This document shows positions 5,302 to 64,000 of a stretch of DNA of 64,000 bases, one piece after another. Origin of the DNA: Planctomycetota bacterium (GTDB lineage Bacteria; Planctomycetota; Planctomycetia; Pirellulales; Pirellulaceae). Where the stretch lies: the NCBI GenBank assembly GCA_026692845.1, contig JAPLNM010000099.1, positions 1 to 64,000 of the forward strand, given 5' to 3'. Under the pieces are notes generated by a model that was not told the DNA's origin, did no database searches, and worked only from the letters and a program-made list of their open reading frames with translations. A program made the position numbers and the translations under genes. Each line of letters begins with the position of its first letter. Within the stretch, counting starts at the first letter, position 1.

Positions 5302-6045
5302 CTACTCGGGGGTTTCCGGCGAACTCAACGCAATTCGGAAGCCGAAGTTGGGAAATCGGTTCGACGGGAAGATCCCGTACCGGTTCGCCGACCGACAAAC
5401 CGAAGCGTTGTTGATCCAACTGCCGCCACGGTAGACCCGGAACGAGCATTCTTTTGGGCCTGCAGGATCGCTGATAGCACCCTTGAGATATTCACTGTAC
5501 CAGTCGCTGCACCATTCCCATACGTTCCCGTGCATGTCATATAGGCCCCAGGCGTTTGGCTTCTTCTGGCCGACCGGTTGTGTCCGATAGTTGCTGTTTT
5601 CAAAAAACCAAGCGTAGTCACCGAGTGACTGTGAACTTTCACCAAAGCTGTACGCGGTCTTACTGCCAGCGCGACAAGCGTATTCCCACTGGGCCTCGGT
5701 CGGTAAGCGATACACAAGACCGGCCTTCTTCTCCTCCGGCAATTCCGATAGCTTCTTGCAGAATCCCATTGCATCGTTCCACGAAACATTCTCTACGGGT
5801 AGATCTGTATTCTGGTTACCGACTATATTCCCTTGGTAGTAACTCGGGTTATCAGCCATCACCATTTCGTACTGGGACTGTGTGACCACATACACTCCAA
5901 GGTAGTAGTCGCTGCTGATGGTGACTTCGTGTTGGAACTCACCTTCACCTCTTTCATCCTCGCTTTCGGGCGAGCCCATCATAAAGGTCCCTTTGGGTAT
6001 CAGCACCAGTTTCATTCCGATGCTGTTAGTGATCTCATGCTTCAT
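5302..6045 (-). CDS. FGE-sulfatase-fold protein, stand-alone
   Basis: A 247-residue single-domain protein of the formylglycine-generating-enzyme/SUMF1 fold. Seen: TFMMGSPESE, VENVSWNDAMGFC, YRLPTEAQWEYACRAG, GLYDMHGNVWEWCSDWY, RGGSWINN and FGFRIA. The two catalytic cysteines of true FGE should lie just after GGS; only one cysteine is present in that stretch (NNASVCR), so sulfatase activation is unlikely and a binding role is more plausible. No signal peptide. Its C-terminal DNA does not match the variable cassette in the FGE proteins at 51 and 63 kb, so it is a useful non-diversified control. The ATG at 6045 gives the usual N-terminal strand. Confidence 0.85.
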   Translation of the reverse strand: MKHEITNSIGMKLVLIPKGTFMMGSPESEDERGEGEFQHEVTISSDYYLGVYVVTQSQYEMVMADNPSYYQGNIVGNQNTDLPVENVSWNDAMGFCKKLSELPEEKKAGLVYRLPTEAQWEYACRAGSKTAYSFGESSQSLGDYAWFFENSNYRTQPVGQKKPNAWGLYDMHGNVWEWCSDWYSEYLKGAISDPAGPKECSFRVYRGGSWINNASVCRSANRYGIFPSNRFPNFGFRIALSSPETPE

Positions 6046-45873: not shown

Positions 45874-46322
45874 GCCGCATGGGCGCAAGCCGCGGGCGTG
45901 GCCAGTACACGGCCACGCCTTTTTCATGGGCAATCAAAAAGGGTCCTAACACCTTTTCTGCTTCCCTGGGAGAGCCCGCCTTCATGCCGAATGGCGTTGA
46001 ATTAGTGTAAGCGGAAGTGCGCAAGCACTCCGGTGAGTGATGGAATGTCCTCGATATCGCAATGTTGTTCACCGGACGGATTGCGCCGTTCTGGTTTTAA
46101 TTCAACGCCATTCGCCTTCATGCCGGCGGGGACATTGGCAGTGCACAGGCAAGAATCGTGGCGATCAAGGATTTTCTTTACCCGAGAAAGACTTCCAGTA
46201 AAATGTCAGACGGACCGTTTTTCACCACGTATGAATTAGGTTGAATCGGCTTGCATTTACAGATATCCTTTACTTACTCCACAATCATCCCCCGGCTAGT
46301 ACCTATCGAACCCGTACCCCCA
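45874..46322. other. Gap before the conflict island
   Basis: 449 bp with no supportable gene. The one clear feature is the 17-bp inverted repeat (45988-46114). The following gene also has an open TTG at 46251, but the ATG at 46323 starts the recognisable domain. No promoter could be identified with confidence. Confidence 0.5.
45988..46114. repeat. Perfect 17-bp inverted repeat, 93 bp apart
   Basis: CGAATGGCGTTGAATTA (45988-46004) and TAATTCAACGCCATTCG (46098-46114) are exact reverse complements. CTTCATGCCG also occurs as a direct repeat at 45980-45989 and 46117-46126. The interior contains a small AGTGC..GCACT hairpin. The structure is MITE-like or operator-like and lies at the left edge of the accessory island. 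Confidence 0.8.
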
Positions 46323-49265: not shown

Positions 49266-51346
49266 GCCACGGCTGGAGTCAGAAGGATTTTGTTGATGCG
49301 TATTGTGAATGGCTTACCGAAAATCCTAAGGATCGCGTTGCAGTTTTGGTGGATCGAGTTATTCAAGAGTCCACGGACATCGTTGCTGAGACCCATGGAT
49401 CCTTTACACACTACGATGCGTTGGTATCGGACGTATGGCGTCGATTGCACGAGATACCTCAGCCGGCCCGGCAGTGGTATTGCGACTTGGTCCATGCACT
49501 CGGGTTCCCTTGGGAGAAAACCACTCCGGTTCCTCAAACCAAAAAGTTCAAAACGGCCCTGAAGGATGTCCTACATTTGCTAGAAACCATGGGCGCACAG
49601 GATCAGACACTCACGGCCATCTACCGAGCGTGGGTAAATTCCCCCGAGAAACTGTTTCGGTTGCCTAAATCCAAATTTACGAACACGCTTGGGTGGACTC
49701 CCGAGCAGATCCAGAATCAGCTCGATCGCGTTCTGCAGGAGATCGGATTTGCAAAACTCAGTGCAGAGGCAAGCAAATGGTGGAACGAATGGAACCAAGC
49801 CGGGGTAACCGCACTGGCAGTGACGCTGAAACGTGCCGAGGAGATCGCAACTCGTGGGGCGTCGATCGACAAGGCGCGTCGTATATGTGTGGGTGAGGCT
49901 CGCCAAGATTGGAGAACAACGCTTCTGATACTGGATGCGGACCGCGAGGAGGACGATTGGGTGCGTCGCAAACAGCGAGGCGAGCAGGAACCGATGGCGA
50001 AATGGGAATCGCTCCTTGCCTTGCCAGTACGAGACGGTCAACTCGATTTTGAATCGATGACGGCCCAGGAGATGGAATCCCATTACAATACTTTATTAAG
50101 ATTGATTGGCTGGCCGATGATTGACGAAGAGAATCGTGTGAGTGTTGCAAAGCCGGGTGAAAGAGCCTCTACAGCGGAGTTGGTGAGTAAGGCATGGCTC
50201 GATCGATGGAGCGAATTGCAAGACCGAGCGGGAGACCCGTCCGATGGTATAGGGCGAATGATTCGATTGACCGAAATTCTTGATTTAAACAAGATACGTT
50301 GGGATACGTTTTTACGAAGCAACGCAGACAAGTCGGATACGACAGTGCTGGGTCAGGTCTATCGGGCGAGTCTGTATACCAAACGGCGTAAGAATCATTT
50401 TCATTTGGATTTTGAATATGGAACGGATGCTGTAGGTCAGTATGCCGACATGATTGTGGCGGTGATGAATGCTGACGACCAAGTGCGCCAGCGCATGCGT
50501 TGGATCCCAGCAGGAGACTTCGTGATGGGTTCTCCAGGGCGTGAGCAAGGGCATAGCTACGATGAAGTGAGTCATTCCGTCGTCATAAGCCAGGGCTATT
50601 GGATGTTTGATATGCCCTGCACGCAAAGGCTCTGGACGGTCGTCATGGGGTCAAACCCAAGTTATTTTATAGATCTCGAACGGCCAATCGAGCAAGTTTC
50701 GTGGACAGCGGTGCAGGAATTTGTGGATGCCCTCAATACACGGTTGTCGCATGGGAATCCAATGCCATTCCGACTACCCACTGAAGCCGAGTGGGAGTAC
50801 GCATGTCGAGCTGGGACAACTACGGCGACCTATGAGGGTGATTTGGAGATCGTCGGAGACGTCAACGCCCCGATTCTTGATGCGATCGCTTGGTACTGCG
50901 GAAATTCAGGGCACGAGTACGACTTGGACAAGTCGTACTCGTTAGACGGGGATACGCTTGCGGAGCGGCTGTACGCGAATAAATCGGGTGGCACTCGTAA
51001 GGTTGGTAAAAAAAAGCCCAATCTTTGGGGTTTGTATGACATGTTGGGTAACGTCTGGGAGTGGTGTCAGGACTGGCATGGAGTGTATCCAGCCGAACTT
51101 GTGGTGGATCCTACTGGTCCGGCGAAGGGCACGGCGCGCGTGATACGCGGTGGGAGTTGGTTCTACCCCGCGCGGTATCTGCGTTCGGCTTGTCGGGGCA
51201 GGCTCGACCCGGGCTATCGGAACGGCTACCTGGGCTTCCGCCTCCTGAGTTCTGCTCGACAAGCGACGGAGTCGGGAGAGGTAGCCTCGCAAAGCGAGGT
51301 CGCGACAGGAGGCCGAGGGACGAGGCCGATAGAGAGCGACGAGTGA
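49262..51346 (+). CDS. FGE/C-type-lectin-fold protein with DGR-like variable C-terminus
   Basis: A 694-residue protein. Residues 1-400 are helical and unrecognised (WYCDLVHALGFPW; KWWNEWNQAG). From about 405 it is an FGE-sulfatase fold: MRWIPAGDFVMGSPG, IEQVSWTAVQEFV, FRLPTEAEWEYACRAG, GLYDMLGNVWEWCQDW, RGGSW. The catalytic cysteine pair of true FGE is missing, so it should be a binding protein. The final RGGSWFYPARY...YLGFRLLSS region is a hypervariable cassette (see 51149-51256) shared with the FGE protein at 63 kb. It overlaps the STAND NTPase by 4 bp, so it is probably the sensor or target-recognition partner of that switch. A 27-residue Gly/Ser/Thr-rich tail follows the cassette. Confidence 0.87.
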   Translation: MSHGWSQKDFVDAYCEWLTENPKDRVAVLVDRVIQESTDIVAETHGSFTHYDALVSDVWRRLHEIPQPARQWYCDLVHALGFPWEKTTPVPQTKKFKTALKDVLHLLETMGAQDQTLTAIYRAWVNSPEKLFRLPKSKFTNTLGWTPEQIQNQLDRVLQEIGFAKLSAEASKWWNEWNQAGVTALAVTLKRAEEIATRGASIDKARRICVGEARQDWRTTLLILDADREEDDWVRRKQRGEQEPMAKWESLLALPVRDGQLDFESMTAQEMESHYNTLLRLIGWPMIDEENRVSVAKPGERASTAELVSKAWLDRWSELQDRAGDPSDGIGRMIRLTEILDLNKIRWDTFLRSNADKSDTTVLGQVYRASLYTKRRKNHFHLDFEYGTDAVGQYADMIVAVMNADDQVRQRMRWIPAGDFVMGSPGREQGHSYDEVSHSVVISQGYWMFDMPCTQRLWTVVMGSNPSYFIDLERPIEQVSWTAVQEFVDALNTRLSHGNPMPFRLPTEAEWEYACRAGTTTATYEGDLEIVGDVNAPILDAIAWYCGNSGHEYDLDKSYSLDGDTLAERLYANKSGGTRKVGKKKPNLWGLYDMLGNVWEWCQDWHGVYPAELVVDPTGPAKGTARVIRGGSWFYPARYLRSACRGRLDPGYRNGYLGFRLLSSARQATESGEVASQSEVATGGRGTRPIESDE
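51149..51256 (+). other. DGR-like variable region A (VR-A)
   Basis: 108 bp from GGTGGGAGTTGG to GAGTTCTGCT. Compared with VR-B (63088-63195) there are 11 differences, all at codon position 1 or 2, none at position 3. The changed codons are 5, 6, 17, 18, 19, 23, 25 and 26. The last 30 bp (TACCTGGGCTTCCGCCTCCT onward) are invariant and would serve as the initiation-of-mutagenic-homing side. Confidence 0.85.
51285..51299 (+). promoter_or_regulatory. Hairpin just downstream of VR-A
   Basis: CCTCGC (51285-51290), AAA loop, GCGAGG (51294-51299): a perfect 6-bp stem 28 bp after the variable region. Many DGRs need a hairpin or cruciform after the homing site; whether this one serves that role is inference. 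Confidence 0.4.
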
Positions 51347-51969: not shown

Positions 51970-52881
51970 ATGCTCCTCCCGAACCAAGTCTGGAATCAAG
52001 TCGAAGACTTCTTCAATAGGATCCCCAGTTTTCAGCCCGAACTCCGCGAAGCGATCTTGTTTCGAATTGCTGGGAGCAATCAGTGGAATGCCCCGTGGGC
52101 AAAGCTACAGCAGGTCGCAGCGAAAGATATCTTCATCACACTTCTTCGAAGCACGGTCCAAACCATCTGTGATACGGAACTAGAACGGCTCACTCTCACA
52201 GCAATAGAAAAAGCGATCCCAAAGGAAAATGAAAAAGATAAACTAGCAATGGGACGGATCATTTCCGCTCACTTCGGCACGTCAGCGACCGACACACATC
52301 AAGTATCCGTGCTATTTCTTGCAGCCGAACCAACCAACGACAGTGCCTTGAGACTAGGAAAAGAGTTCCGCGAGATTCAAGAAATCATCGGTGTTGCCAA
52401 TCGCGACAATGCGGCTCTCGTTCTGGAAATGCCCGAATTTGCCACGCGACCGAAGGATTTACTCAACAAGGTCCTCGGTTTTCGCCCCAGCCTCGTGCAT
52501 TTCAGTGGGCATGGTGACCAGTCTGGAGGACTAAAACTTGAATCCCAAGATGGCCGGAGCCACACCGTTCAACCCGAAGCCTTGGCAGATTTCTTTTCAC
52601 AGTGCAAGCAATACCTTCAGTGCGTCGTACTCAACGCATGTTACTCGTCCGAACAAGCCAAAGAGATCTCAAAACACATTCCCTATGCGATCGGAATGAG
52701 CGACAAGATTGGCAACGCGGATGCCGTGAAATTCTCAGTTGGTTTCTATACCGCCCTGAACAATGCGAACACAGATTTCCAAGCTGCCTTTAACGCTGGA
52801 TGCAGTATGCTTAACCTCGAAAACAGCCCCTACGTGAACGTGCTGGGATTGTATCGAACCGGACAGCGAGTCCAAGTGTAG
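51970..52881 (+). CDS. CHAT-domain (caspase-like) protease with N-terminal adaptor domain
   Basis: A 303-residue protein. Residues 1-84 form a helical adaptor (REAILFRIAGSNQWNAPWAKL, FITLLRSTV) matched by the N-terminus of the protein at 58167. Residues 112-290 are a CHAT peptidase: VSVLFLAAEPTND at the first strand, catalytic His181 in HFSGHGDQSG, catalytic Cys224 in VVLNACYSS. In bacteria such caspase-like proteases act as effectors that cleave partner proteins or cause cell death on a signal. It is the first gene of a rightward run of closely spaced genes; the next starts 46 bp later. Start ATG at 51970; no ribosome-binding site stands out. Confidence 0.9.
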   Translation: MLLPNQVWNQVEDFFNRIPSFQPELREAILFRIAGSNQWNAPWAKLQQVAAKDIFITLLRSTVQTICDTELERLTLTAIEKAIPKENEKDKLAMGRIISAHFGTSATDTHQVSVLFLAAEPTNDSALRLGKEFREIQEIIGVANRDNAALVLEMPEFATRPKDLLNKVLGFRPSLVHFSGHGDQSGGLKLESQDGRSHTVQPEALADFFSQCKQYLQCVVLNACYSSEQAKEISKHIPYAIGMSDKIGNADAVKFSVGFYTALNNANTDFQAAFNAGCSMLNLENSPYVNVLGLYRTGQRVQV

Positions 52882-52927: not shown

Positions 52928-54790
52928 ATGCGTGAGATAAGACTCAGCACTGTAACGATCAGAAGTTTGACCCTGATGGCTGTGGAGGACGCCATCGAAT
53001 ATCTAGCCATGGATTATCCAGGTTTAGCGGAACCCATTCGTAAAGGACTGCCGATTCGAATCCGTGAGTTGAACGTCGAAATACTGGCCGAGAAAATTTG
53101 TTCAAGGTGTACTCCGCAAAGGAAGACAAGCGTTCAACTACTTCTTAAATCCTATCGAGAATTGGACTCCACCAAAACCGCTCTAGTCAATCAATGGTTA
53201 GACCAATGGAACGCATTCGTAGTTCGTTTGGATGATATCAACCAACGAAGTCAACCACGCAGCGTAGCTAAAAATCTAGGTATTTGGTTTCAAACGACGG
53301 TTGAGAATGAGGCTATCGTTCTGGTCAACCAACAACTCATACCCCAAGCCGACTTTGCGGATGTCGTCGGTGTTGTATCCGATATGTTGGCAGATTATCG
53401 AGAACATGGAGTCGATCAGCTTGATCCAAGCGATCGGTTGGCTCTGCTCTACGCCTACAGCATCGTCGAGGGGGGTACGGTTCCGAATCAACGGATTCAT
53501 CCGATTCGAACGGATGTCCTCAGGGAATACCCAACTTATCTGGCCCTTGCCGATCCTGGTAAAGGCCATTTGCAAACGACCGTGTACAGCAAGGAGATGC
53601 TTCAAGGAACGATCGTCCACGTTGAAACGATTGACCGTCAGGGCAACGACGACCGCCAAGCCGTTGAACCTTACCGAATCCCATCGATTCGGGATGTTGC
53701 AAGGATTCGAGTACACGTTGGAAGCACGACCCCTTGTTCTGTCTTTGTCGGTCGGCCGGTCTTCGAAGGCTGGAAACGAGGGGAGAAGGATTTTGTCCTG
53801 TTTCGCCAAAGCCTCCTTAAGGCCGCCCACACGGTAGGAGCCGCATGCTCCTCGATGTTCTATCTCGGAGTTGCAGAGTGCAAAATCGGCATGGATGGTT
53901 TGACTTCCAATCAAGCCATCGAGGTCATGCAAGCGATTGCGGGCAATGTTATCCGGGACAGGAGTCGTCAGCGGCTCTCGGCGGCGTTCAATATCAACAC
54001 CCCGATAATGGACGACCGGGGGGTAGACCGCGCTAATGCGGTGGAAGTCACCGGGCACACCGAGATCGCTTGCCTTGCGATCGACCTTACCTCCAGTGGT
54101 GATTTCGATAAGGTGACCCTTGACGGCGCAATTGACGGAAAAAGCGTGCCTTTTTTGAAGCAAATGAAACCCGAGGCTTTAATTGATTTCGTGCATCGCG
54201 CGCACGAGAAAGGACTAGAAACCTATATTTCAGCCGGCATGGATGCATCTAACATCGGAGACGCAGTACGGATAGGTATCGGCGGTGTGGGCATGGGTAT
54301 TCGACTTCATGAGGATAATCAAGTCAAAGAGATAACGCACATCAAGAGAGATGCTCTTGAAGTCCTAAGGAAAAGAGATGAGGCGTGGACTGAAGCGGCA
54401 GGAAAAGCAGCTGCCTTGCTTGCCAAGCTCGATTGGCTACGATCGGGCGAGGCGATCACTCAGGAACAGGATGAAAGGAGAGATGACCTTTTCGTTCAGC
54501 TCAAGGAATACCATCGATCCAGCGGAGCGGATCGAGAGACCAAGGAACGTCTGACCGGAAAACTGAATCGACTTATTGACGAGTTGTCTCTCGTCGTGAA
54601 CCAACGGGCGGAGACGCTAAAACAAGGCGAAATAAGAGGCCCTGGTGATGAATTCGATCCGATTTTTGCGATCGCAGCAGCACAAGTGAAAGCGGACGAA
54701 ATCAAGGGTAAGGAAACCGATCCTGAATTGAAAGCCTATCTGGAACGCAGGGATGCAGAAAGTCTCAAGTGCCTTATGGGATACCAGTGA
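52928..54790 (+). CDS. Unknown conflict-island protein with MfnB-like TIM-barrel segment
   Basis: A 620-residue protein. The N-terminal 250 residues are unrecognised, starting with a short region that may be another adaptor (TIRSLTLMAVEDAIEYL). From about 300 to 480 the sequence follows the methanogen MfnB/DUF556 pattern: FYLGVAECKIG, VTGHTEIACLAIDL, TLDGAIDGKSV, then ALIDFVHRAHEKGLETYISAG and IGIGGVGMGIRL. MfnB makes a furan-phosphate cofactor precursor in a TIM barrel; here the segment is probably reused. The last 140 residues are charged and coiled-coil-like (QEQDERRDDLFVQLKEYHR). No signal peptide. Role in the system is unknown; a nucleotide- or metabolite-linked enzymatic role is a guess. 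Confidence 0.65.
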   Translation: MREIRLSTVTIRSLTLMAVEDAIEYLAMDYPGLAEPIRKGLPIRIRELNVEILAEKICSRCTPQRKTSVQLLLKSYRELDSTKTALVNQWLDQWNAFVVRLDDINQRSQPRSVAKNLGIWFQTTVENEAIVLVNQQLIPQADFADVVGVVSDMLADYREHGVDQLDPSDRLALLYAYSIVEGGTVPNQRIHPIRTDVLREYPTYLALADPGKGHLQTTVYSKEMLQGTIVHVETIDRQGNDDRQAVEPYRIPSIRDVARIRVHVGSTTPCSVFVGRPVFEGWKRGEKDFVLFRQSLLKAAHTVGAACSSMFYLGVAECKIGMDGLTSNQAIEVMQAIAGNVIRDRSRQRLSAAFNINTPIMDDRGVDRANAVEVTGHTEIACLAIDLTSSGDFDKVTLDGAIDGKSVPFLKQMKPEALIDFVHRAHEKGLETYISAGMDASNIGDAVRIGIGGVGMGIRLHEDNQVKEITHIKRDALEVLRKRDEAWTEAAGKAAALLAKLDWLRSGEAITQEQDERRDDLFVQLKEYHRSSGADRETKERLTGKLNRLIDELSLVVNQRAETLKQGEIRGPGDEFDPIFAIAAAQVKADEIKGKETDPELKAYLERRDAESLKCLMGYQ

Positions 54791-54833
54791 TTGGCGAGGC
54801 ATTCAATGGAAAGGGCGAAAAAGAGAAGTACCC

Positions 54834-56633
54834 ATGGATAAAGATGATTTCAAGCTTCATCCTTCGGTCAGCGTTAGCTGCCAAATGAGGACCCTCACGG
54901 CAATCGAAACGCAAATCCGAAACGCCGTGAACGAGGGGATTCGTCCTGTCATTGAAATCGACTTGGATCTATGCGCCTTACGGCCCGTCTACCGCACGAG
55001 GCAAGCTTTGATGCAAGTCGGACATGAGTTTCGTATCGCTGAATTTACGGAGCCAGATTTGCTTGGCATACTTCCAGGTTACTCCGACGAAGCATGGGAC
55101 GCTTTCCTGAGTGGAACTCATCTAGAGCGAACCTATCCCGAACTCAAGTGGCGGGAGAATGGCCGTCTAGCACGCAGCCATGGCACCCCGTTTGGTCGCT
55201 TTCACCAACTCTACTGGACGACAGCCTGGATGTCCGAGGACGAACCCACCCCAGGGCTTGGTTCGTTCGTTCACCACATAGAATCGCTTGGTGCATGCTG
55301 TGTCTTTCTCTCGGGACGGTGGGAGAACGAACATGTAGATCCGTCGCTCGAATCGCTAAAAAGATCCGGGATACCTCACCCAAATCTCGTTATCGGAAAT
55401 CCTTGGCACGAAACCAAAGCCTCGTCACCCCAGAGTGCTCTTTCGGACTCGGCGGTGAAGGCATGGCGGCAGAAGGAAATCCATAAACGTTTTGGAACGC
55501 CGGTAGCAATCATCGACGATCGCATCACCAACAGGAATGCAGTCCTATCGGAAAGTCCAACGCCGATGCTTTCCATCGCCATTGCGATCCCGGGATTTAC
55601 CTGCGATGCCAACAGCATCAACGTAACTCTAAGGATATCGACCTTTGAGCAGTTTTGCCAAACGATAGACTCTCCTCCACAGCGTCCATTGATGAGGACT
55701 AGGTATCCGACGCTTGGGTATGGGCAAGTCTGGAGAGGTGAATACGCCGGGCTCGGGAAAAATGGGCTGGGTTATTGCTTACCGAAGCCCGAGGACCAAT
55801 TGAAAGTTTACGGCGAACCCCCGTTTGGCACGCTGCTGGCAAAAATCGACGGGAAGATAGCCGAGGAGCAGGCACTCGAACACTTTGAAACTACGATTCC
55901 CCAGGAGGAGCTTACCGCGCTTCGTGACGCATATCATACGGCAAGGGAACTGGCCGCCCTCGGATTGGCGGCACCATGGAATGGATCCTCTGCGGAGGAG
56001 AATGGCCGTTTCGAAAAGGATCTATGGAGATCGCTAGTTTGTGCGTGGCTCCATAGTCGCGATATGGAGATCCTGATCAATGCGTTGGGATTTCCAAGAA
56101 CTCTTGCTGGTATCCATGATCTCCGCGAATGCGTCGATCGCGACGAGGTACAATGGTTGCTGTTATCCACCAGTCCGGTCGATTTCGACCGCATTCGTCG
56201 CGCGAACTATAGTCCCTGGTTAGTTGCCTGGGCTAAGCAACTCAGAGAAGATCAAGTGAATGTCAGTTTCCTGAACCCCCATTTGCTCGTGGATTTGTGT
56301 CTGTGGACACCGAAAAGGCAAGGTTCGCAGGATGCCATGGACGTTCACCGACTCTCCGATCATCATGACGGTGACGGAGTTGAACGATACGACCCGATCG
56401 AGGCGGGAGTCAACAACTTACTCCATCAGCGTGAAGGTCGATTTGGGGTCAGAAAAGAGCCGGTCGTTTCGTGGCGAGAACTGCGCGATTCAGTCGCGAC
56501 CGAGACAGGTTCCACCGATTTGTCCAAGAATAGTGCATCCCGCAAGGTACTCAGTCAAGCAATAGATACGACAGAGAAACTGGAAGCATCAGGTTGGATG
56601 ACTCCCTGGTTTGTTTGTGAAAGGATAGGATGA
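54834..56633 (+). CDS. HAD-like hydrolase protein of the conflict island
   Basis: About 599 residues from the ATG at 54834, which avoids the 38-bp overlap given by the open ATG at 54753. The N-terminal 270 residues show HAD-superfamily motifs: motif I IEIDLDLCALRP (D-x-D), motif II CVFLSGRWE (Ser), a lysine-bearing segment, and motif IV VAIIDDRITNRNAV. These fit a phosphatase or nucleotidase acting in the cytoplasm. The C-terminal 300 residues (RTRYPTLGYGQVWRGEYAGLG onward) are unrecognised, with a helical end. Its stop overlaps the next gene by 4 bp (ATGA). Specific substrate unknown; a phosphosignal or nucleotide are possibilities. Confidence 0.7.
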   Translation: MDKDDFKLHPSVSVSCQMRTLTAIETQIRNAVNEGIRPVIEIDLDLCALRPVYRTRQALMQVGHEFRIAEFTEPDLLGILPGYSDEAWDAFLSGTHLERTYPELKWRENGRLARSHGTPFGRFHQLYWTTAWMSEDEPTPGLGSFVHHIESLGACCVFLSGRWENEHVDPSLESLKRSGIPHPNLVIGNPWHETKASSPQSALSDSAVKAWRQKEIHKRFGTPVAIIDDRITNRNAVLSESPTPMLSIAIAIPGFTCDANSINVTLRISTFEQFCQTIDSPPQRPLMRTRYPTLGYGQVWRGEYAGLGKNGLGYCLPKPEDQLKVYGEPPFGTLLAKIDGKIAEEQALEHFETTIPQEELTALRDAYHTARELAALGLAAPWNGSSAEENGRFEKDLWRSLVCAWLHSRDMEILINALGFPRTLAGIHDLRECVDRDEVQWLLLSTSPVDFDRIRRANYSPWLVAWAKQLREDQVNVSFLNPHLLVDLCLWTPKRQGSQDAMDVHRLSDHHDGDGVERYDPIEAGVNNLLHQREGRFGVRKEPVVSWRELRDSVATETGSTDLSKNSASRKVLSQAIDTTEKLEASGWMTPWFVCERIG

Positions 56634-58108
56634 TCAACGCCATGGCAGCTCCCACCAAAAAATCAGTTCTGTTTATCAATGGAATTCTTGAGAAACAAGT
56701 AGCGGAGGAGTTCTCAGATATCCAGGATATCTTACATGACTCGGACTTGTCATTGCTAGCTCCGCTTTTCGATGCGTGTTACGAGCGAATCAGAAAAAAT
56801 GTGAAAGCCGCAAAGGGACTGTCTGTAATCTATTTCGCTGGCCACGCTGACTCTCATGGTGTGCAGATACGGCATCGTAAACCGCAACAAAAAGAACTTG
56901 ACAATAACAGCGCTCGCTTAAATGCTGAATTGATTCGCGAAGCATTGCGGAGAAACAGGAAAAATACGGTGGATTTGGTTCTTTTTAATTGCTGTGAGTC
57001 GCTCGAAATCGCAAGGCGTATCAGTACGCTCGGAGTGGCCAAAGCGACGATCGGATGGGGAACGACCACTAACAACAGGGCATGTAAGCTTTTTGCTACG
57101 GAATTTTTCAGGCATCTCAAAAGCGATATCACCGACGGGGAAATGGCAATCAATAGTGCCTTCAATTCAGCAGAAGCACACATTCCTAAAAGTTACGGAC
57201 TTAAAATATTCTTCCGCTCGCAGAACGAACCGTCTTTTGATGTCACCGTAGAGTTGTGCATAAAAACCTTGGAGAAACAGCGTAACCTGGCGAAAGATTT
57301 AGCAAAATTTCTCAAGCTTCCCTCTGATGCGACAGCGAGGGAAATTGCAACTAAGTTGTTGGACGACAGACGATCTAGGACTTCAGCGATTGCAAAGCTA
57401 GCGGGATTTCTCGCGGACATTTCTAAGCGAAACCCCTTAATTGATCATGACTACATTGAGGCGCTGAGGATAATCAGGGACTTGGCCTATACCAAATCAT
57501 TACCAGATCAGGATCTTGCGACTGTCTCAGAGTCTCTTAGTGATTCCATCGCCACGACGATCCTTGATCGTGGTCGAAAAGTGGTGCTTCCGGCGAAGAT
57601 GAGATTGGACCAAATTAGGAATATACTTCAAAGGGCTCATGCGGAGCTCAAATCACGTGATGAAGCCGTGAGTGATTTTAGTTTTTATTATAACCATTCT
57701 ATCGACGGGGATGATAGCAGCTACCTGTTTGAGGATAAGCTCATTCTCTTGGATTGTACGGAATGTCCAAGCCATTTTAAGGATTTGAGAAAAAGAGAGG
57801 CTTACGTTCTAGGCGTTCTGAAAAACGACTACCCAAATTCAAACCGACACCTGAAACAATTCTTTGAAAAGAAATACGAACTCAATGACTTGTTTGCGGA
57901 ATTAATCCAGCATCGTAAAAACACAGTGGCGATCCTAATTCCTGAGGATCAACGCGAAATCTGGAATAGTTTTTTAGACAAGCATAAAGAAATCATATCC
58001 GTTATTCGACCTGTTCTTGATCAAAAGGTTTACAGTTTATTGCACGAAGCGAATCAGAAAGCCCATAGTCTACTCCAGAAACTTCGCGCCGATGTCAAGT
58101 CTCGTTGA
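56630..58108 (+). CDS. Second CHAT-like (caspase-like) protein
   Basis: A 492-residue protein. The N-terminal 200 residues have the CHAT/caspase pattern: KSVLFINGIL at the first strand, catalytic-type His72 in YFAGHADSHG, Cys122 in VLFNCCESLE, then GWGTTTNN and FFRHL. The remaining 290 residues are helical and not recognised (FSFYYNHSIDGDD near 350, charged helices at the end). The coding sequence is clearly AT-richer than the genes before and after uvrA, suggesting foreign origin. It overlaps the HAD-like gene by 4 bp. The two CHAT proteins differ strongly, so they are not recent duplicates. Confidence 0.78.
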   Translation: MINAMAAPTKKSVLFINGILEKQVAEEFSDIQDILHDSDLSLLAPLFDACYERIRKNVKAAKGLSVIYFAGHADSHGVQIRHRKPQQKELDNNSARLNAELIREALRRNRKNTVDLVLFNCCESLEIARRISTLGVAKATIGWGTTTNNRACKLFATEFFRHLKSDITDGEMAINSAFNSAEAHIPKSYGLKIFFRSQNEPSFDVTVELCIKTLEKQRNLAKDLAKFLKLPSDATAREIATKLLDDRRSRTSAIAKLAGFLADISKRNPLIDHDYIEALRIIRDLAYTKSLPDQDLATVSESLSDSIATTILDRGRKVVLPAKMRLDQIRNILQRAHAELKSRDEAVSDFSFYYNHSIDGDDSSYLFEDKLILLDCTECPSHFKDLRKREAYVLGVLKNDYPNSNRHLKQFFEKKYELNDLFAELIQHRKNTVAILIPEDQREIWNSFLDKHKEIISVIRPVLDQKVYSLLHEANQKAHSLLQKLRADVKSR

Positions 58109-58166
58109 TCTAAGTCCTCTGTTGCATCTTAAGCATTTATCAGCAATTTCTTGGTAGAGGTAATTG

Positions 58167-59513
58167 ATGTCAATTCGCGAATTCGGTTTTGATTGGAATA
58201 CACTTGCTCAATTACAAAAACGTTTGCCGATAACAGAACAGATCGAGCGTACCACTCTTGTTGTCAAGACCGTTGGTTACGAACGAGCCAATGATCCACC
58301 CTGGGCGTCATTGAAAAACATCGAAGCCAGAAGCTCATTCTTCACGACGCTTAATTCCAAGATCGAGGACATCGACGATTTCAATCTATTCATCAGTTAT
58401 ATCCGCGCCCAGACGGAAGCCTGCCATAATCAATCCGATCATGCATGGCTGGTCGATCAGCAAAAGCGGCTGGATGCATTTTTGACCAAGAAGCCGAAAG
58501 CGAGAAAATCAACGGTTCGCGGAACGCGGGAAACAAGGAAGAGCCCCGAGTCACAAAAGTCCACCGCCGCTAAGGAATCAACTAACTCCAAAGCTAAAGG
58601 GACCTCAAAACAGGAAACTCCAACCAAGAATCAAACTTATTCACGACTGCAACCAAAGAACTTTGTTAGGGATTGCCTGAAAAACGCACTGATCGACAAC
58701 AAGGATTTGCTTCAATTGATCTCCCATGCATTATCCGATGGGGGCGATGGTCATGACCTTGAGAGCGTCGTCAGTTATTTCACTGATATCGCCGATCAGG
58801 ATGATCGCGATTTTCCCCTTCGCCGATTTCGTAAGTTGCTCAAACGGATGCGTGATAAAAAAGCGACGTTTTCAGAGTCGCTTCATCGCACGTCTCTAGT
58901 GGTCGTCAAGGATCTTCTCACCGTGGCGTCATTCCCCAAGGAAGACATGCAAAGAATGGAGAATGCCATGATCCAGGTACTAGCCGAAGATTCGGCTTCC
59001 ATGGATTCGGCTGAACTCAACGCCCACAACCAAAGAGACGCCGAAAAACTTCTCATTGCAACACGCATTAAACTCTCGGGCAACACATTCGACGACTGCC
59101 AGATCCCGCAACTCCTCAACCATGATTTTAGTGCGAGCAAGGACTTTAGCATCCTGATGGAGAAAGTTCTCGTCGTTCCTGAACCACCTGCCCCCCCCGA
59201 CAAAGCGAATAAACCGGAATGGTACGCGAAATCCTGTTTGGTCTCCCTTGGGTACGATCCAGACACCCCCGCGTCATCGGTCGACGTATTCCAGGATGTC
59301 CTTATCCAAAATGCCGAAGAGGATACAGTCGTTGCGATGTTCATCACCTACGAAAAGCTGGAAACCATCAAAATCTTGAGGCAATCCTTTCCGCGTCTGC
59401 TTCTCGTCGTACTATCCGAAAAGAACGCTCTTAGGTATTCTCAAATCTACATCGATTTAGTCGATACAGATAACCTTCTAAAACGAATGTTAGGGTCCCC
59501 GACCAACCGATAA
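58167..59513 (+). CDS. Adaptor protein sharing the CHAT protein's N-terminal domain
   Basis: About 449 residues from the ATG at 58167, supported by AGAGG 7-11 nt upstream. Residues 1-85 match the N-terminus of the CHAT protein at 51970 in pattern (ITEQIERTTLVVKTVG, PPWASLKNIEA, FFTTLNSKI versus REAILFRIAG, APWAKLQQVAA, FITLLRSTV). A Lys/Ser/Thr-rich linker (107-160) follows. Next comes a helical domain (about 165-330) and a C-terminal alpha/beta part (YAKSCLVSLGYDPDTP, VVAMFITYEKLETIKIL). No enzyme motif is visible. The shared domain suggests it binds the CHAT protease through like-like contacts and links it to the MoxR/vWA genes downstream (31 bp to MoxR). Confidence 0.7.
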   Translation: MSIREFGFDWNTLAQLQKRLPITEQIERTTLVVKTVGYERANDPPWASLKNIEARSSFFTTLNSKIEDIDDFNLFISYIRAQTEACHNQSDHAWLVDQQKRLDAFLTKKPKARKSTVRGTRETRKSPESQKSTAAKESTNSKAKGTSKQETPTKNQTYSRLQPKNFVRDCLKNALIDNKDLLQLISHALSDGGDGHDLESVVSYFTDIADQDDRDFPLRRFRKLLKRMRDKKATFSESLHRTSLVVVKDLLTVASFPKEDMQRMENAMIQVLAEDSASMDSAELNAHNQRDAEKLLIATRIKLSGNTFDDCQIPQLLNHDFSASKDFSILMEKVLVVPEPPAPPDKANKPEWYAKSCLVSLGYDPDTPASSVDVFQDVLIQNAEEDTVVAMFITYEKLETIKILRQSFPRLLLVVLSEKNALRYSQIYIDLVDTDNLLKRMLGSPTNR

Positions 59514-59544: not shown

Positions 59545-60666
59545 ATGAAACCACTACCGATCCGGCTCCCGAGTGGGTCAGAATTCAAGCACCTGCTCGA
59601 TCCTGTCCACGAACAAGCTATCCGAGGCGCCGCGGCCGCAAACCGTCCTCTGCTCGTGCGCGGTGAACCAGGGCTGGGCAAATCCCAACTGGCCTACGCC
59701 GCCGCCTCCCTCCTGGGCCGAAAACTCATTTCCTACACCATCTCGGCAAGCACCGAGGCCCAAGACCTCCTGTGGTCCTTCGACGCCGTCAAACGTCTGG
59801 CCGAATCCCAAGTCGCCGCGCAGATGCTCAGGATCTATCCCGAAACCGCGAGCGGCAAAGCTGCAAAAGCCGTAAAGGCCGCACCGCAAGACCCCTGGGC
59901 CGATGCCGAAAATCGATTGCGTGAAAAAATCGATGTCAAAAAATTCCTGCTCCCAGGCCCCCTCTGGTGGGCGATCGATTGGGAGTCGGCCAACCTCGCC
60001 AACCACGAACGACTGGCCCCCTCCCCTGCCTCAGTGTCCGAGTCCGCCGAGGACTGGAAACCCGAACAAGGGATCGTCATCCTCATCGATGAAATCGATA
60101 AGGCCGAGTCGAGTGTCCCAAACGGCCTGCTCGAAATCTTCGGTGCCCGGCAATTGCAACCACCCGGATACCCCGATCCGATCGTCTCGAAACCCAACAC
60201 CAAATCTCCACTCGTCATCATCACCACCAACGAAGAACGGATGCTCCCGACGGCCTTCATCCGCCGTTGCTTCGTCCTGGAACTCGAACTCCTGCCGTGC
60301 GTCGACAACCAAGGCAACAAAGTCATCGATGGTAAAAAAGACGCCTTCATCGATTATTTCATCTCGCTGGGCAAAGCCCACTTCGACACCGAACTCCCCG
60401 AAACGCTCTACACGGAAGCGGCCGAAATGCTTTTCGAAGACCGTTGCGAAGCGATACGCAGCCAAGCCATCTGGAGACCTGGGCCCGCCGAGTACGTTGA
60501 CTTGCTCTGCGCCGTGAAGGAATGGGAAGGGGAGATCGATGTGACCAAGGACTCCCCTGCGTCGCGCTCGAAAGCTCGCCGTACCAAACGCTCCGACAAA
60601 GAGTACAAGGAGCTGTGCCAAAACCTTCGACGCTTCGCACTCCAAAAGAACGTCTCAGGTCGCTAG
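59545..60666 (+). CDS. MoxR-family AAA+ ATPase
   Basis: A 373-residue AAA+ ATPase of the MoxR type. Walker A GEPGLGKS at about 37-44, the helix-2 insert region (ASTEAQDLLWSFDAVKRL), Walker B ILIDEIDKAESS, sensor 1 ITTNEER and the arginine-finger region AFIRRC are all visible. MoxR ATPases act with vWA-domain partners as chaperone-like remodelling machines. The next gene begins immediately after its TAG stop and encodes a vWA-like protein, so the two form a classical MoxR-vWA pair. Cytoplasmic. Confidence 0.93.
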   Translation: MKPLPIRLPSGSEFKHLLDPVHEQAIRGAAAANRPLLVRGEPGLGKSQLAYAAASLLGRKLISYTISASTEAQDLLWSFDAVKRLAESQVAAQMLRIYPETASGKAAKAVKAAPQDPWADAENRLREKIDVKKFLLPGPLWWAIDWESANLANHERLAPSPASVSESAEDWKPEQGIVILIDEIDKAESSVPNGLLEIFGARQLQPPGYPDPIVSKPNTKSPLVIITTNEERMLPTAFIRRCFVLELELLPCVDNQGNKVIDGKKDAFIDYFISLGKAHFDTELPETLYTEAAEMLFEDRCEAIRSQAIWRPGPAEYVDLLCAVKEWEGEIDVTKDSPASRSKARRTKRSDKEYKELCQNLRRFALQKNVSGR

Positions 60667-63342
60667 ATGAAGTCCCATCGTCTCTCTTCGAAACGGTCGG
60701 TGGTTTGGCGAGGTGATCTGGTCCGAACCCGCCTCTTTCAGTCCGCTTATTCGGACAACCGCCCGGACGTCCTGCCGCTCATCGATAGCTTGGGCTTTAC
60801 CGCCGAATTGCCCGTCGAGCCACCGGAGACCAGTCGCCTGCGCATGGAGAAATTCCGTCAAGATCTCGTTGAGTTCAATCGGTTAAAAAAAGAACGACCA
60901 AGCAGCGAGTTGGAGCAAACACCGGCCGTTCCCACACACAACTGGACTCCAACGCAGTTTCGATCCCCGCCTTGGAAAGCCCGCAGCCAGGACCCGGAGC
61001 CTGAGGATCTAAGCAAAACGGAGAATCAAAACGGAGTGCCGGTGGAGCGCGTGCCGCTTCGTCCGCTGGCGACTTGGCCGCAGCTTCGCAACCGACTCCA
61101 ACCCATGCTGAGCCGTAGCGTTGTCACCCGCAAGATCGACGAGAAGAAACTCGTGCAGAGCCTTTGCCGCTGCGAATCGATCGCCAAGTTACCGAGGATA
61201 GTGCGCAAGCGATCGCCCGAACAGGTCCATGTCATCGCCGATCGGAGCGATCGGTGCATTCCTTTTTTTGCCGATCAGCAGCTCGTCGCGGAGCAGATCG
61301 GTCGAGAGCTAGCGCGCGATCAGTGCCGATTCTCCGTCGGTCGGCTCCCTCATTTGCTCGACAAGAGCAATACGACGCTGCGAACGCAATTTCGACGTGG
61401 CTGGACCGAGAGCGAGGAAGATCTGAGCAGAGAAGAGCCAGATCCGCAAAGCACGGTTCTCATTCTAGGGGATCTTGCGGTTCTCGAGCGGCACAAACCC
61501 CATGAGCGAGCCTCTTGGGTGCATTGTTGCCGCCGATGGCGACAGCGGGGGGTGAAGATCTATGCGCTTGTTCCTTATGCGACCGATCAGTTGCCGCGAG
61601 AGTTTGCCGAGTTGGTCGAGCCGATCGCTTGGCAAGGCAACGGGGTCGAGTACGCGAGCGACCAGCGGAGGGAGGATCTCGTGCGAGCGATATTCGTGCG
61701 AGCATATCCGGCCATGCAGCTTGAGCCAGCGTTGCTACGCGAGTTGCGAACGATGGTGCCCGATGCGATGGACGCATCGCTTGAGTCCGACATATGGCAG
61801 CACGATTGGTTGGCCAGCAACCATGTCGGTGGGGCCAGGAACGACCGGGTCGATGTCAAGGAGCGTTTGCAGGACGAGTTTGAGCTTTTGGAAGATGAAA
61901 CGAGGCGCTTGGTTTTGAGCACGCAGCGTCGAATCCGCCAAAGCGCTGGTTATCTATCGCTGTGGCAATTGGAGTTTCTCAATCAGACGCTTCGTACGCG
62001 AGAGTTGCTTAAGGAGTACAAGCAGGACACCGAGGCCATGCGCAGGACGCTCAGGGAGTACGAAGCGTACGTGCTCAAGGATGCGATACCTGATGACAAG
62101 CACGATCAGATCGCATGGTACTCCAGGCGGGCGACCGAAGCGGCGCGGGGTGATGACTTGGTTGGGGATTCGGTACGTCGCCTTCAGCGAACCTTTCAAG
62201 AGAGCCCGGGGCTCCATCCGGCGACACGGATCGACGAGATTAGGAGCGATGGCATCCAAAGGTCGGTTGGGCTGATGGGGCTTTTCGACAAGATTGAGGC
62301 GAGGGTGATCCGAGGTGTCAGCGAGGTCGCTTCGGCTGGCTCGGATTGGGTGACGATGCGATCGACATCACCGGTGATTGAGGTCCAAGTACCGCAGTTG
62401 GATGCTGCTGCTCGGCGGGAGCGAGACTTTTGGAAATCGGGTGTTAAACCCGATTGGGTGAGCGATTATGGGACGGATCCGTATGGGGCTTGGTGCGAGT
62501 TCCAGGTCCCCCGGCATGACGGCAAGGGGATGGTCACGCAGCGCATGCGTTGGATCAAACCTGGCGAGTTCATGATGGGCTCGCCAGAGGGTGAGGTTGG
62601 ACCATTTGAGAATGAGTCGCCTGCGCATTTAGTGAAGCTGACCCAAGGTTACTGGATGGCCGATACGCAGGTCACGCAGGAACTATGGATGGCAATCGGC
62701 AGAGGTGAGAATCCGAGCGCCTTCAAGGGTGAAAGCAATCCGGTGGAGCATGTTTCCTGGGAGGATTGCCAAGCTTGGTTTGAAAAGCTTTGCGAGCATC
62801 ACGAGTCTCTCCAACTATCGTTACCGTGGGAGTATGCATGCCGCGCCGGTTCAACGAGTGCGTATTGCTTTGGAAATGATCCAAAGGAACTGCCGAAGTA
62901 CGGCTGCTTCGATAAGAACTCGAAGCTTAGACCGCATCCAGTGAAGCAATTCCAGCCCAATGGCTGGGGTTTGTACGACATGCATGGCAACGTATGGGAA
63001 TGGTGTAGCGATTGTTATGGTAAGTATGCATCGTCCGCTCAATCGGATCCTACCGGTCCTACGGAGGGCCCGGCGCGCGTGTTACGCGGTGGGAGTTGGA
63101 TCGCCCCCGCGCGGTATCTGCGTTCGGCTTGTCGGTCCGGGAGCGACCCGGGCGATCGGGACGCCTACCTGGGCTTCCGCCTCCTGAGTTCTGCTCTAGG
63201 GGCCGAGCCGAGCGAGCGAGCGATGCTGCCCGTCGCGGAGCAGGGCACAGAGCCAGCGAGGCCAGTGCAGGTCCGAGTGAAGGACCAAGAACCGGTTCGA
63301 ACCGACAGGCCTTTGGTGCGAGCTCCAAGTCCGCCGGCGTAA
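60667..63342 (+). CDS. vWA-like/FGE-fold fusion protein with DGR-like variable C-terminus
   Basis: An 891-residue protein that starts directly after the MoxR stop. Residues about 185-330 look like a von Willebrand A domain with a degenerate MIDAS (VHVIADRSDRCIPFFADQQL; TVLILGDLAVLE; GVKIYALVPYA). A helical region with coiled coil follows (380-600). From about 620 comes an FGE fold (MRWIKPGEFMMGSPEG, VEHVSWEDCQAWFEKL, WEYACRAG, GLYDMHGNVWEWCSDCY, RGGSW). Compared with its tandem copy it lacks four residues (TEAQ) before WEYACRAG, an in-frame 12-bp deletion. The C-terminal cassette (63088-63195) is hypervariable. The true FGE cysteine pair is absent, so it should bind ligand. It links a variable recognition domain to the MoxR partner module. 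Confidence 0.88.
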   Translation: MKSHRLSSKRSVVWRGDLVRTRLFQSAYSDNRPDVLPLIDSLGFTAELPVEPPETSRLRMEKFRQDLVEFNRLKKERPSSELEQTPAVPTHNWTPTQFRSPPWKARSQDPEPEDLSKTENQNGVPVERVPLRPLATWPQLRNRLQPMLSRSVVTRKIDEKKLVQSLCRCESIAKLPRIVRKRSPEQVHVIADRSDRCIPFFADQQLVAEQIGRELARDQCRFSVGRLPHLLDKSNTTLRTQFRRGWTESEEDLSREEPDPQSTVLILGDLAVLERHKPHERASWVHCCRRWRQRGVKIYALVPYATDQLPREFAELVEPIAWQGNGVEYASDQRREDLVRAIFVRAYPAMQLEPALLRELRTMVPDAMDASLESDIWQHDWLASNHVGGARNDRVDVKERLQDEFELLEDETRRLVLSTQRRIRQSAGYLSLWQLEFLNQTLRTRELLKEYKQDTEAMRRTLREYEAYVLKDAIPDDKHDQIAWYSRRATEAARGDDLVGDSVRRLQRTFQESPGLHPATRIDEIRSDGIQRSVGLMGLFDKIEARVIRGVSEVASAGSDWVTMRSTSPVIEVQVPQLDAAARRERDFWKSGVKPDWVSDYGTDPYGAWCEFQVPRHDGKGMVTQRMRWIKPGEFMMGSPEGEVGPFENESPAHLVKLTQGYWMADTQVTQELWMAIGRGENPSAFKGESNPVEHVSWEDCQAWFEKLCEHHESLQLSLPWEYACRAGSTSAYCFGNDPKELPKYGCFDKNSKLRPHPVKQFQPNGWGLYDMHGNVWEWCSDCYGKYASSAQSDPTGPTEGPARVLRGGSWIAPARYLRSACRSGSDPGDRDAYLGFRLLSSALGAEPSERAMLPVAEQGTEPARPVQVRVKDQEPVRTDRPLVRAPSPPA
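63088..63195 (+). other. DGR-like variable region B (VR-B)
   Basis: 108 bp aligned without gaps to VR-A (51149-51256): 97 identical, 11 different, all at codon positions 1 or 2. Variable codons here read ATC GCC, TCC GGG AGC, GAT, GAC GCC. Flanking invariant blocks include CCCGCGCGGTATCTGCGTTC and the 3' TACCTGGGCTTCCGCCTCCT. Confidence 0.85.
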
Positions 63343-63629
63343 TGGTGACGGGATGGTCACGCAGCGTATGCGCTGGATCAAGCCTGGGGAGTTCATGATG
63401 GGCTCGCCAGAGAGTGAGGTAGATCGAAATAAAAATGAGACGCTACATCGCGTCACGCTAACCCAAGGGTACTGGATGGCCGATACGCAGGTGACTCAGG
63501 AGCTGTGGATGGCAATCGGCAGAGGTGAGAATCCGAGCGCCTTCAAGGGTGAAAGCAATCCGGTGGAGCATGTTTCCTGGGAGGATTGCCAAGCTTGGTT
63601 TGAAAAGCTTTGCGAGCATCACGAGTCTC

Positions 63630-63661
63630 TCCAACTATCGTTACCGCCAACTATCGTTACC
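63630..63661 (+). repeat. 16-bp tandem duplication causing the frameshift
   Basis: CCAACTATCGTTACCG occurs twice head to tail. The first FGE copy has it once (62811-62826) and there lacks the next 12 bases (ACCGAGGCGCAG) found here. Confidence 0.85.
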
Positions 63662-63935
63662 GACCGAGGCGCAGTGGGAGTATGCATGCCGAGCTGGTTC
63701 AACGGGTTCGTATTGCTTTGGTGATGATCCGAAGGAACTGCCAAAGTACGGTTGGTTCGGTGAGAATTCGGAGGATTCAACGCATCCAGTGAAGCAACTC
63801 CAGCCGAATGGCTGGGGCTTGTACGACATGCATGGCAACGTATGGGAATGGTGCAGCGATCGGTGGGGCGATTACCCTGCGTCCGCTCAAGCGGATCCGA
63901 CCGGTCCTGCGGAGGGCTCGACGCGCGTGATACGC

Positions 63936-64000
63936 GGTGGGAGTTGGATCTACCCCGCGCGGTATCTGCGTTCGGCTTGTCGGAACAGGCGCGCCCCGGG
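63936..64000 (+). other. DGR-like variable region C (VR-C), cut by window end
   Basis: First 65 bp of a third cassette. It differs from VR-A and VR-B only at codons 5, 6, 17, 18, 19 and 20, always at positions 1 or 2 (here ATC TAC; AAC AGG CGC GCC). Out of frame with the ATG at 63353. Confidence 0.75.

Follow-up and report, generated by a model that had tools for sequence, protein, structure and literature searches.

A retroelement-diversified recognition domain joined to a degenerate vWA domain beside a MoxR ATPase: a candidate sensor of a ternary conflict system in a planctomycete

The window analysed here comprises bases 1-64000 of contig JAPLNM010000099.1 (C99; 67,683 bases) of a bacterium of the Pirellulaceae (Planctomycetota); positions prefixed C99 count along that contig. 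Near its end, a MoxR-family AAA+ ATPase gene is followed by the gene for an 891-aa protein, T1 (60667-63342, +), in which a helical N-terminus, a degenerate vWA domain and a C-terminal extension precede an FGE/C-type lectin (CLec) domain. Computation revealed a diversity-generating retroelement (DGR) with adenine-directed variation in the FGE domain, a vWA fold in the region before it, the conservation of the gene pair, and, in relatives, a third gene with effector-like N-termini. We put at roughly 60% the probability that T1 acts, with its DGR-diversified domain, as the sensor in a ternary conflict system of the MoxR-vWA kind; taken as a whole, the locus resembles an immune sensor that diversifies itself and is connected to an ATPase and to effectors of the cell-death type.

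The ATPase gene (59545-60666, +; 373 aa) matched Pfam AAA_5 (E 3e-12) and bpMoxR (1e-5, just below the cut-off), and its P-loop (GEPGLGKS), Walker B (LIDEIDK) and sensor-1 (TTNEER) motifs are kept in an alignment with six orthologues. Its end reads CGC TAG, with the TAG at 60664-60666 and the ATG of T1 at 60667, i.e., zero bases between them, as the initial annotation had stated. When public genomes were scanned once with an alignment of MoxR, 80 loci emerged, including 37 MoxR/vWA-FGE pairs (at least one a likely duplicate, L020/L026) from Planctomycetota, Magnetococcales, other Proteobacteria, Verrucomicrobia, Acidobacteria and Spirochaetes. Since the 37 pairs recur with a spacing of -26 to +15 nt in 28 of them (a 4-nt overlap in 12), the adjacency of MoxR and T1 was considered not to be a product of chance. 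The distances of the MoxR and vWA proteins were correlated (r 0.84), as were those of the vWA protein and the third component introduced below (0.77) and of MoxR and the third component (0.68), and 0 of 1000 permutations reached these values. A recognisable HRDC gene and reverse transcriptase (RT) were nearby in six of the loci, a count limited by contig ends and by the single-sequence query. The retroelement described below is a DGR that takes a MoxR partner as its target.

The identity of the region linking the two ends of T1 had to be sought in its fold. No Pfam, NCBIfam or PADLOC model names this extension in the T1 of the window, and fold comparison was used because searching PDB sequences with a profile of the extension had produced no real match. 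AlphaFold2 models built from 46-47 aligned sequences had a pLDDT mostly above 90 across residues 130-430. In Foldseek searches the best PDB match of both models was the vWA protein NorD, bound to the MoxR ATPase NorQ (9qhe_G; E 3.1e-3 and 1.3e-3, probability 0.99), and in VIA-align the 14 top rows for the domain model were all vWA domains, with Z of 8.5-9.8 over about residues 183-325. The 600-residue model reached a vWA Z of up to 9.1. NorD chains came to Z 8.3; NorD and the vWA domains of CMG2/TEM8 were the top structural matches of the region. In addition, a profile of T1 homologues could be aligned collinearly, across 111 columns, to genuine VWA_CoxE domains (E 0.0035, at a low absolute probability of 9), and unrelated profiles and 20 column-shuffled controls scored far below this match. 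VWA_CoxE was also the only Pfam family matched by more than one T1 homologue (4/47, best E 0.01). Based on these models, profiles and the column counts that follow, T1 residues ~183-327 (61213-61647, +) are predicted to fold as a degenerate vWA domain.

The degeneracy lies in the metal ion-dependent adhesion site (MIDAS). The motif DRSDR, at residues 192-196, closes the first predicted core strand (187-192), and the VWA_CoxE profile alignment pairs both MIDAS aspartates with D192 and D269. Among 47 homologues, D192 is kept in 46, D269 in 43 and S194 in 24, and the fifth position, R196 in T1 in place of the second Ser, is Arg or His in most. The complete signature DxSxS...T...D is thus absent from T1, which has D192, S194 and D269, Arg at the fifth position, and no identified Thr. 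The proposal, made from the letters alone, of a degenerate vWA domain with a MIDAS-like DRSDR is borne out by the fold match to NorD and other vWA domains, as is the suggestion that a structure prediction of residues 180-335 would reveal such a fold. A phosphoribosyltransferase was considered for the same Rossmann-like region and set aside, its VIA-align Z being mostly 7-8 (maximum 8.4, against up to 9.8 for vWA) with no support from sequence. NorD inserts a finger into the NorQ pore (PMC13036017), and an insertion in T1 (residues 226-262), modelled with low confidence as a small hairpin, could be its counterpart.

That a metallochaperone should be the closest structural match lends some weight to a housekeeping role, in which a MoxR-vWA chaperone of the NorQD or RavA-ViaA type matures the variable protein itself or a cofactor enzyme and has no part in conflict. 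Such a role is very unlikely, as it does not fit the patchy spread of the locus (6 of 60 relatives), its targeting by a DGR, or its TIR, SIR2 and trypsin partners. NorQ-NorD (PMC13036017) shares with the locus a MoxR ATPase with a vWA partner, the best Foldseek match to the vWA model, and differs from it in having a full MIDAS, a function in metal insertion into nitric oxide reductase, and neither FGE nor DGR.

Just beyond the window end, within C99:65292-66966, are an HRDC gene, a DGR-type RT and a template repeat. The HRDC-like open reading frame (ORF; C99:65292-65768) overlaps that of the RT (C99:65698-66756), and the template repeat lies near C99:66833-66966. The RT carries both signatures of its type, IGxxxSQ (IGALTSQ at residue 199) and YxDD (YMDD at 231), and the HRDC-like ORF provides one of the two accessory proteins, Avd or HRDC, by which DGRs are recognised. 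Four variable repeats (VRs) were found in C99, at 51123-51256, 63062-63195, 63910-64043 and 65038-65171, and the rest of the genome held no further copy of the repeat. Because the four VRs differ from the template almost only at adenines, the element was assigned as a DGR: template adenines were changed in 55 of 112 cases and other positions in 6 of 424, i.e., 55 of the 61 mismatches fall on adenines (Fisher p between 2e-7 and 2e-13 for the individual repeats). The VR of T1 (63062-63195, +) has 18 mismatches to the template, 17 of them at adenines, and that of the second FGE copy (63910-64000, +, running on to C99:64043) has 14, with 13 at adenines. All four repeats have in common two differences close to the 3' end (127 A>G and 131 C>T), as would be expected if this end were the fixed homing site.

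The FGE-sulfatase/CLec domain of T1 (residues 626-840; 62542-63186, +; Pfam FGE-sulfatase E 9e-40) has as its nearest solved structure the DGR variable protein 2y3c of Treponema denticola, and for that reason a sulfatase-activating FGE enzyme was dropped as its identity. The TvpA DGR of T. denticola (2y3c; PMC4891356) is similar in its FGE/CLec variable protein and in an HRDC accessory gene that overlaps the RT, an arrangement known from the DGRs of that species (PMC4891356), and differs in that the available part of its description (PMC4891356) gives no MoxR or vWA partner. Two further claims of the initial annotation find their explanation here: the hypervariability of the FGE domain is accounted for by the DGR, the VR-template differences being almost all at adenines, and its recognition end is indeed physically tied to a MoxR partner module, since it is joined to a domain of the vWA type, with which MoxR ATPases usually pair. 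FGE-family matches number 22 in the genome, and a VR matching the template is present only in the four at C99:51123-65171; one of the further matches lies at 5302-6045 of the window.

The FGE segment has undergone tandem duplication (62470-64200; the duplication continues in L009). The second copy (63353-64000, +) is a frameshifted duplicate whose frame runs past the window to C99:65261 and includes a third FGE copy. In the alignment, the copy within T1 lacks 12 nt, the residues TEAQ present in the neighbouring copy, and the second copy has a 16-nt insertion. It is unlikely, though worth weighing, that these lesions mark a decaying, non-functional copy of a system that works in relatives, which carry vWA-FGE-FGE as one ORF; the first FGE has lost four conserved residues and the second its frame. 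Decay is at odds with the open reading frames of MoxR, T1, T2 (a second target, described below), HRDC and RT, and with the finding of only 1-3 non-adenine differences per VR, one of them common to all repeats.

In most loci a gene for a protein of 400-650 aa lies directly 5' of MoxR, often with a 4-nt overlap. A profile of the C-terminal part of this third component, built with the window sequence left out, also recovered upstream genes that were not in the build (L030, L033, L036, L038, L041, L067 and L068; E 3e-28 to 2.5e-8). The N-termini of the relatives' proteins are TIR, trypsin, SIR2, or a calcineurin phosphoesterase with a nucleoside phosphorylase. The order third component-MoxR-vWA recurs in relatives, and would apply to the window if the 449-aa protein encoded at 58164-59513 (+), with an adaptor-like N-terminus, a linker and a divergent C-terminal domain, is the probable third component that we take it for. 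This protein weakly resembles the third component of L026 (phmmer E 0.0037) and scores low, at 7.8 bits, with the family profile. In L026, from a Pirellula sp., the cassette consists of third component, MoxR, vWA-FGE-FGE and a 137-aa ORF, set between phosphoglycerate kinase and YacP genes. As the same-genus locus L020 and L026 look alike, the window probably comes from a Pirellula-like planctomycete.

The first ~100 residues of the 58164-59513 product resemble the N-terminus of a 303-aa CHAT peptidase-like protein encoded in the same operon (51970-52881, +; CHAT 1.1e-6; BLASTP pair E 6e-8), the same adaptor-like N-terminus as in third components. Both N-termini resemble the L026 third component, that of the CHAT protein with E 2.4e-4 (BLASTP pair E 4e-10). 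Such sharing follows the pattern of adaptor domains known as effector-associated domains (EADs), for which Kaur et al. 2020 (PMC7159879) propose a mode of action through homotypic contact. Between the two genes lies that of a 492-aa caspase-like protein (56630-58108, +), which matched NCBIfam caspase_w_EACC1 weakly and below the cut-off (E 4.6e-4) and in which the motif FAGHAD...LFNCCES was read. It was considered as a second third component and rejected, at 3.3 bits with the C-terminal profile.

All that lies past the joint encoding of these proteins, i.e., MoxR binding, ligand binding, the direction of signalling, effector activation and a role in defence, we infer as follows. The retroelement would rewrite adenine-templated codons in the FGE domains of T1, T2 and the extra copies, altering their ligand specificity, while the degenerate vWA domain of T1 would dock on the MoxR hexamer. 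An invader molecule bound by the FGE domain would cause a signal to pass via the vWA domain, and ATP-driven remodelling by MoxR would rearrange the complex with the third component (58164-59513). The adaptor-like N-terminus of the latter might then recruit the CHAT peptidase (51970-52881) by homotypic contact, perhaps likewise the caspase-like protein, and the outcome would be a response of the abortive-infection type. We think that sensing falls to the variable FGE and the effector role to the third component and its CHAT partner, with vWA-MoxR as the ATP-driven switch between them. For the initial annotation's suggestion that ligand recognition controls an AAA+ remodeller, the support is partial: it comes from the vWA fusion, the recurrence of the pair in several phyla and the correlated distances. 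The DGR, the third component, the CHAT and caspase-like genes and the second target with its STAND NTPase, most of which fall beyond the window or the span 59545-63342, did not figure in that annotation.

The roles could also be reversed, with the third component sensing and MoxR-vWA releasing or deploying the variable FGE to bind and block invader proteins, and Kaur et al. 2020 (PMC7159879) do regard FGS domains fused to vWA as effectors that MoxR-vWA deploys. We consider this rather unlikely; a randomly diversified binder is better suited to sensing than to blocking, and the view of FGE as the sensor was favoured because the enzymes on third components (TIR, SIR2, trypsin) are of kinds usually found in effectors. 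Quite unlikely is a function in kin or self recognition rather than antiviral defence, an alternative put forward by Doré et al. 2024 (PMC10907252), in which the varied FGE would tell neighbours apart in aggregates and a mismatch would lead to MoxR-driven killing. Planctomycetes do form rosettes, but no secretion signal was noticed on reading the T1 N-terminus (no predictor being run), and a cytosolic binder meets no neighbours directly.

Against the view of T1 as the diversified sensor of a conflict system, several points must be set. The Foldseek E-values of the vWA match are slightly above 1e-3, phosphoribosyltransferases of similar Rossmann-like topology are only 1-2 Z lower, and the MIDAS of T1 is incomplete, with Arg for the second Ser and no Thr identified. 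The window's own third component is recognised weakly, the caspase-like protein is below every curated cut-off, and the correlated distances in part reflect shared species history. In addition, T1 may be a truncated or split version of a vWA-FGE-FGE gene that followed from the FGE duplication.

MoxR-vWA ternary systems, and vWA-FGS fusions diversified by DGRs, are known from Kaur et al. 2020 (PMC7159879). In the DGR loci described by Doré et al. 2024 (PMC10907252), MoxR directly adjoins a target with an extension that has no predicted domain and stands 'in place of a vWA', and a canonical VMAP is missing. The latter authors proposed, as an alternative to Kaur et al., that the target is an antigen sensor relaying through MoxR (PMC10907252). 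The sensor logic is already in print in Doré et al. 2024 (PMC10907252), who in turn drew on Kaur et al. 2020 (PMC7159879), and the present locus fits the former's description. Like their clade 5A and the DGR 8/9 loci of Thiohalocapsa PB-PSB1 (PMC10907252), it has trypsin/TIR/caspase genes nearby and no canonical VMAP. It differs in that the extension, reported there as domain-less, is here assigned a degenerate vWA domain and a C-terminal extension, and in the conserved third component.

VMAP ternary systems (PMC7159879) share the order third component-MoxR-vWA, a vWA fused to a DGR-diversified FGS, and a third component with a swappable TIR, peptidase or adaptor N-terminus. In contrast to them, neither hidden Markov models nor profile-profile comparison detected VMAP-C here, the Trp motifs are missing from the MoxR N-terminus, and the MIDAS is degraded. 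The residues of MoxR N-terminal of the P-loop include no Trp, and the VMAP-type motifs WxhapG and PsWRxa are absent. Pfam gave no VMAP-C match in the third component, and hhalign a probability of 0.1 for its C-terminal domain; a search over 79 genomes of the phylum found VMAP-C nowhere and was hence repeated in genomes that hold it, where real VMAP-C (PF20028) was present elsewhere in six of eight searched, and not in the third component. The iSTAND ternary systems (Kaur et al. 2020) are likewise similar, with a MoxR free of VMAP extensions, an FGS-bearing vWA, and third components with TIR, peptidase or EAD N-termini; they differ in the iSTAND domain, of which Pfam found none in the third component and hhalign gave a probability of 0.2 in a comparison with just three iSTAND sequences. 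The GXXXTAKS P-loop of FtsH and beta-propeller ternary systems is replaced by GEPGLGKS, and as for the beta-propeller or double FtsH component of those systems, Pfam scans of the operon genes found no propeller or FtsH.

Relative to the main texts of Kaur et al. and Doré et al., three points appear new, namely that the extension is, as predicted, a vWA domain with a degraded MIDAS, that a recurrent third component without VMAP-C accompanies it, and that actinobacteria have homologues of it as separate MoxR partners; their supplements might already hold any of these. In Streptomyces, Asanoa and others, MoxR is followed by a gene of about 320-370 aa that encodes the vWA module by itself, and the short C-terminal extension forms the start of the gene after that, which has NB-ARC/TPR, TIR or CHAT parts. 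We hold it possible, at a little under even odds, that all these loci form a further MoxR-vWA subsystem, apart from the VMAP, iSTAND, FtsH and propeller types. It would be defined by interchangeable TIR/SIR2/trypsin/adaptor N-termini on a C-terminal domain of its own, by MoxR, and by a MIDAS-degraded vWA, which is fused to a DGR-diversified FGE in planctomycetes and proteobacteria and stands as its own gene in actinobacteria, with NB-ARC/TPR, CHAT or TIR proteins encoded after it.

Of the parallels to anticipatory, antibody-like immunity proposed in bacteria, sensors diversified by DGRs in conflict systems come closest, and according to Doré et al. 2024 (PMC10907252) the experimental testing of that parallel is still to come. 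A vWA domain in extensions called 'without predicted domains' shows how a variable domain could connect to MoxR, and offers a concrete contact. The TIR, SIR2 and trypsin N-termini of third components provide readable outputs, NAD loss and proteolysis, and the near-bare three-gene cassette of the Pirellula locus L026 is convenient for reconstitution.

The window also holds a second DGR target, T2 (49262-51346, +; 694 aa), in which an N-terminal region unrelated to that of T1 is joined to an FGE domain (6e-38). Its VR (51123-51256) has 14 mismatches, 13 of them at template adenines, and its N-terminal region is rare, with two other matches in 119 genomes of the family. A 1004-aa STAND-type NTPase (46251-49265, +; NPHP3_N 6e-5 and AAA_16 9.5e-4, both weak and below cut-off) overlaps T2 by 4 nt, so that targets of one retroelement are paired with two different NTPases, STAND in one case and MoxR in the other. 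A tblastn search of plasmids with the T1 extension gave no match.

Variants of the gene arrangement were also seen. One Pirellulaceae locus has a separate vWA gene, and the next gene carries NACHT-FGE parts. The actinobacterial loci L069, L077, L081 and L074 have MoxR, a separate vWA gene, and then an NB-ARC/TPR, TIR-NB-ARC or CHAT protein, with a TIR third component upstream in L069, L077 and L081, and one actinobacterial downstream protein is an FxSxx-COOH system TPR protein (NF040586). At L023:1-3816, MoxR and vWA-FGE are in one frame with no stop between them, and MoxR itself has an internal stop, possibly a gene fusion or a sequencing error. Finally, two other operon genes of the window have weak matches: residues 303-449 of a 620-aa protein (52928-54790) match (5-formylfuran-3-yl)methyl phosphate synthase, and a 626-aa protein (54753-56633) is HAD-phosphatase-like, below the cut-off.

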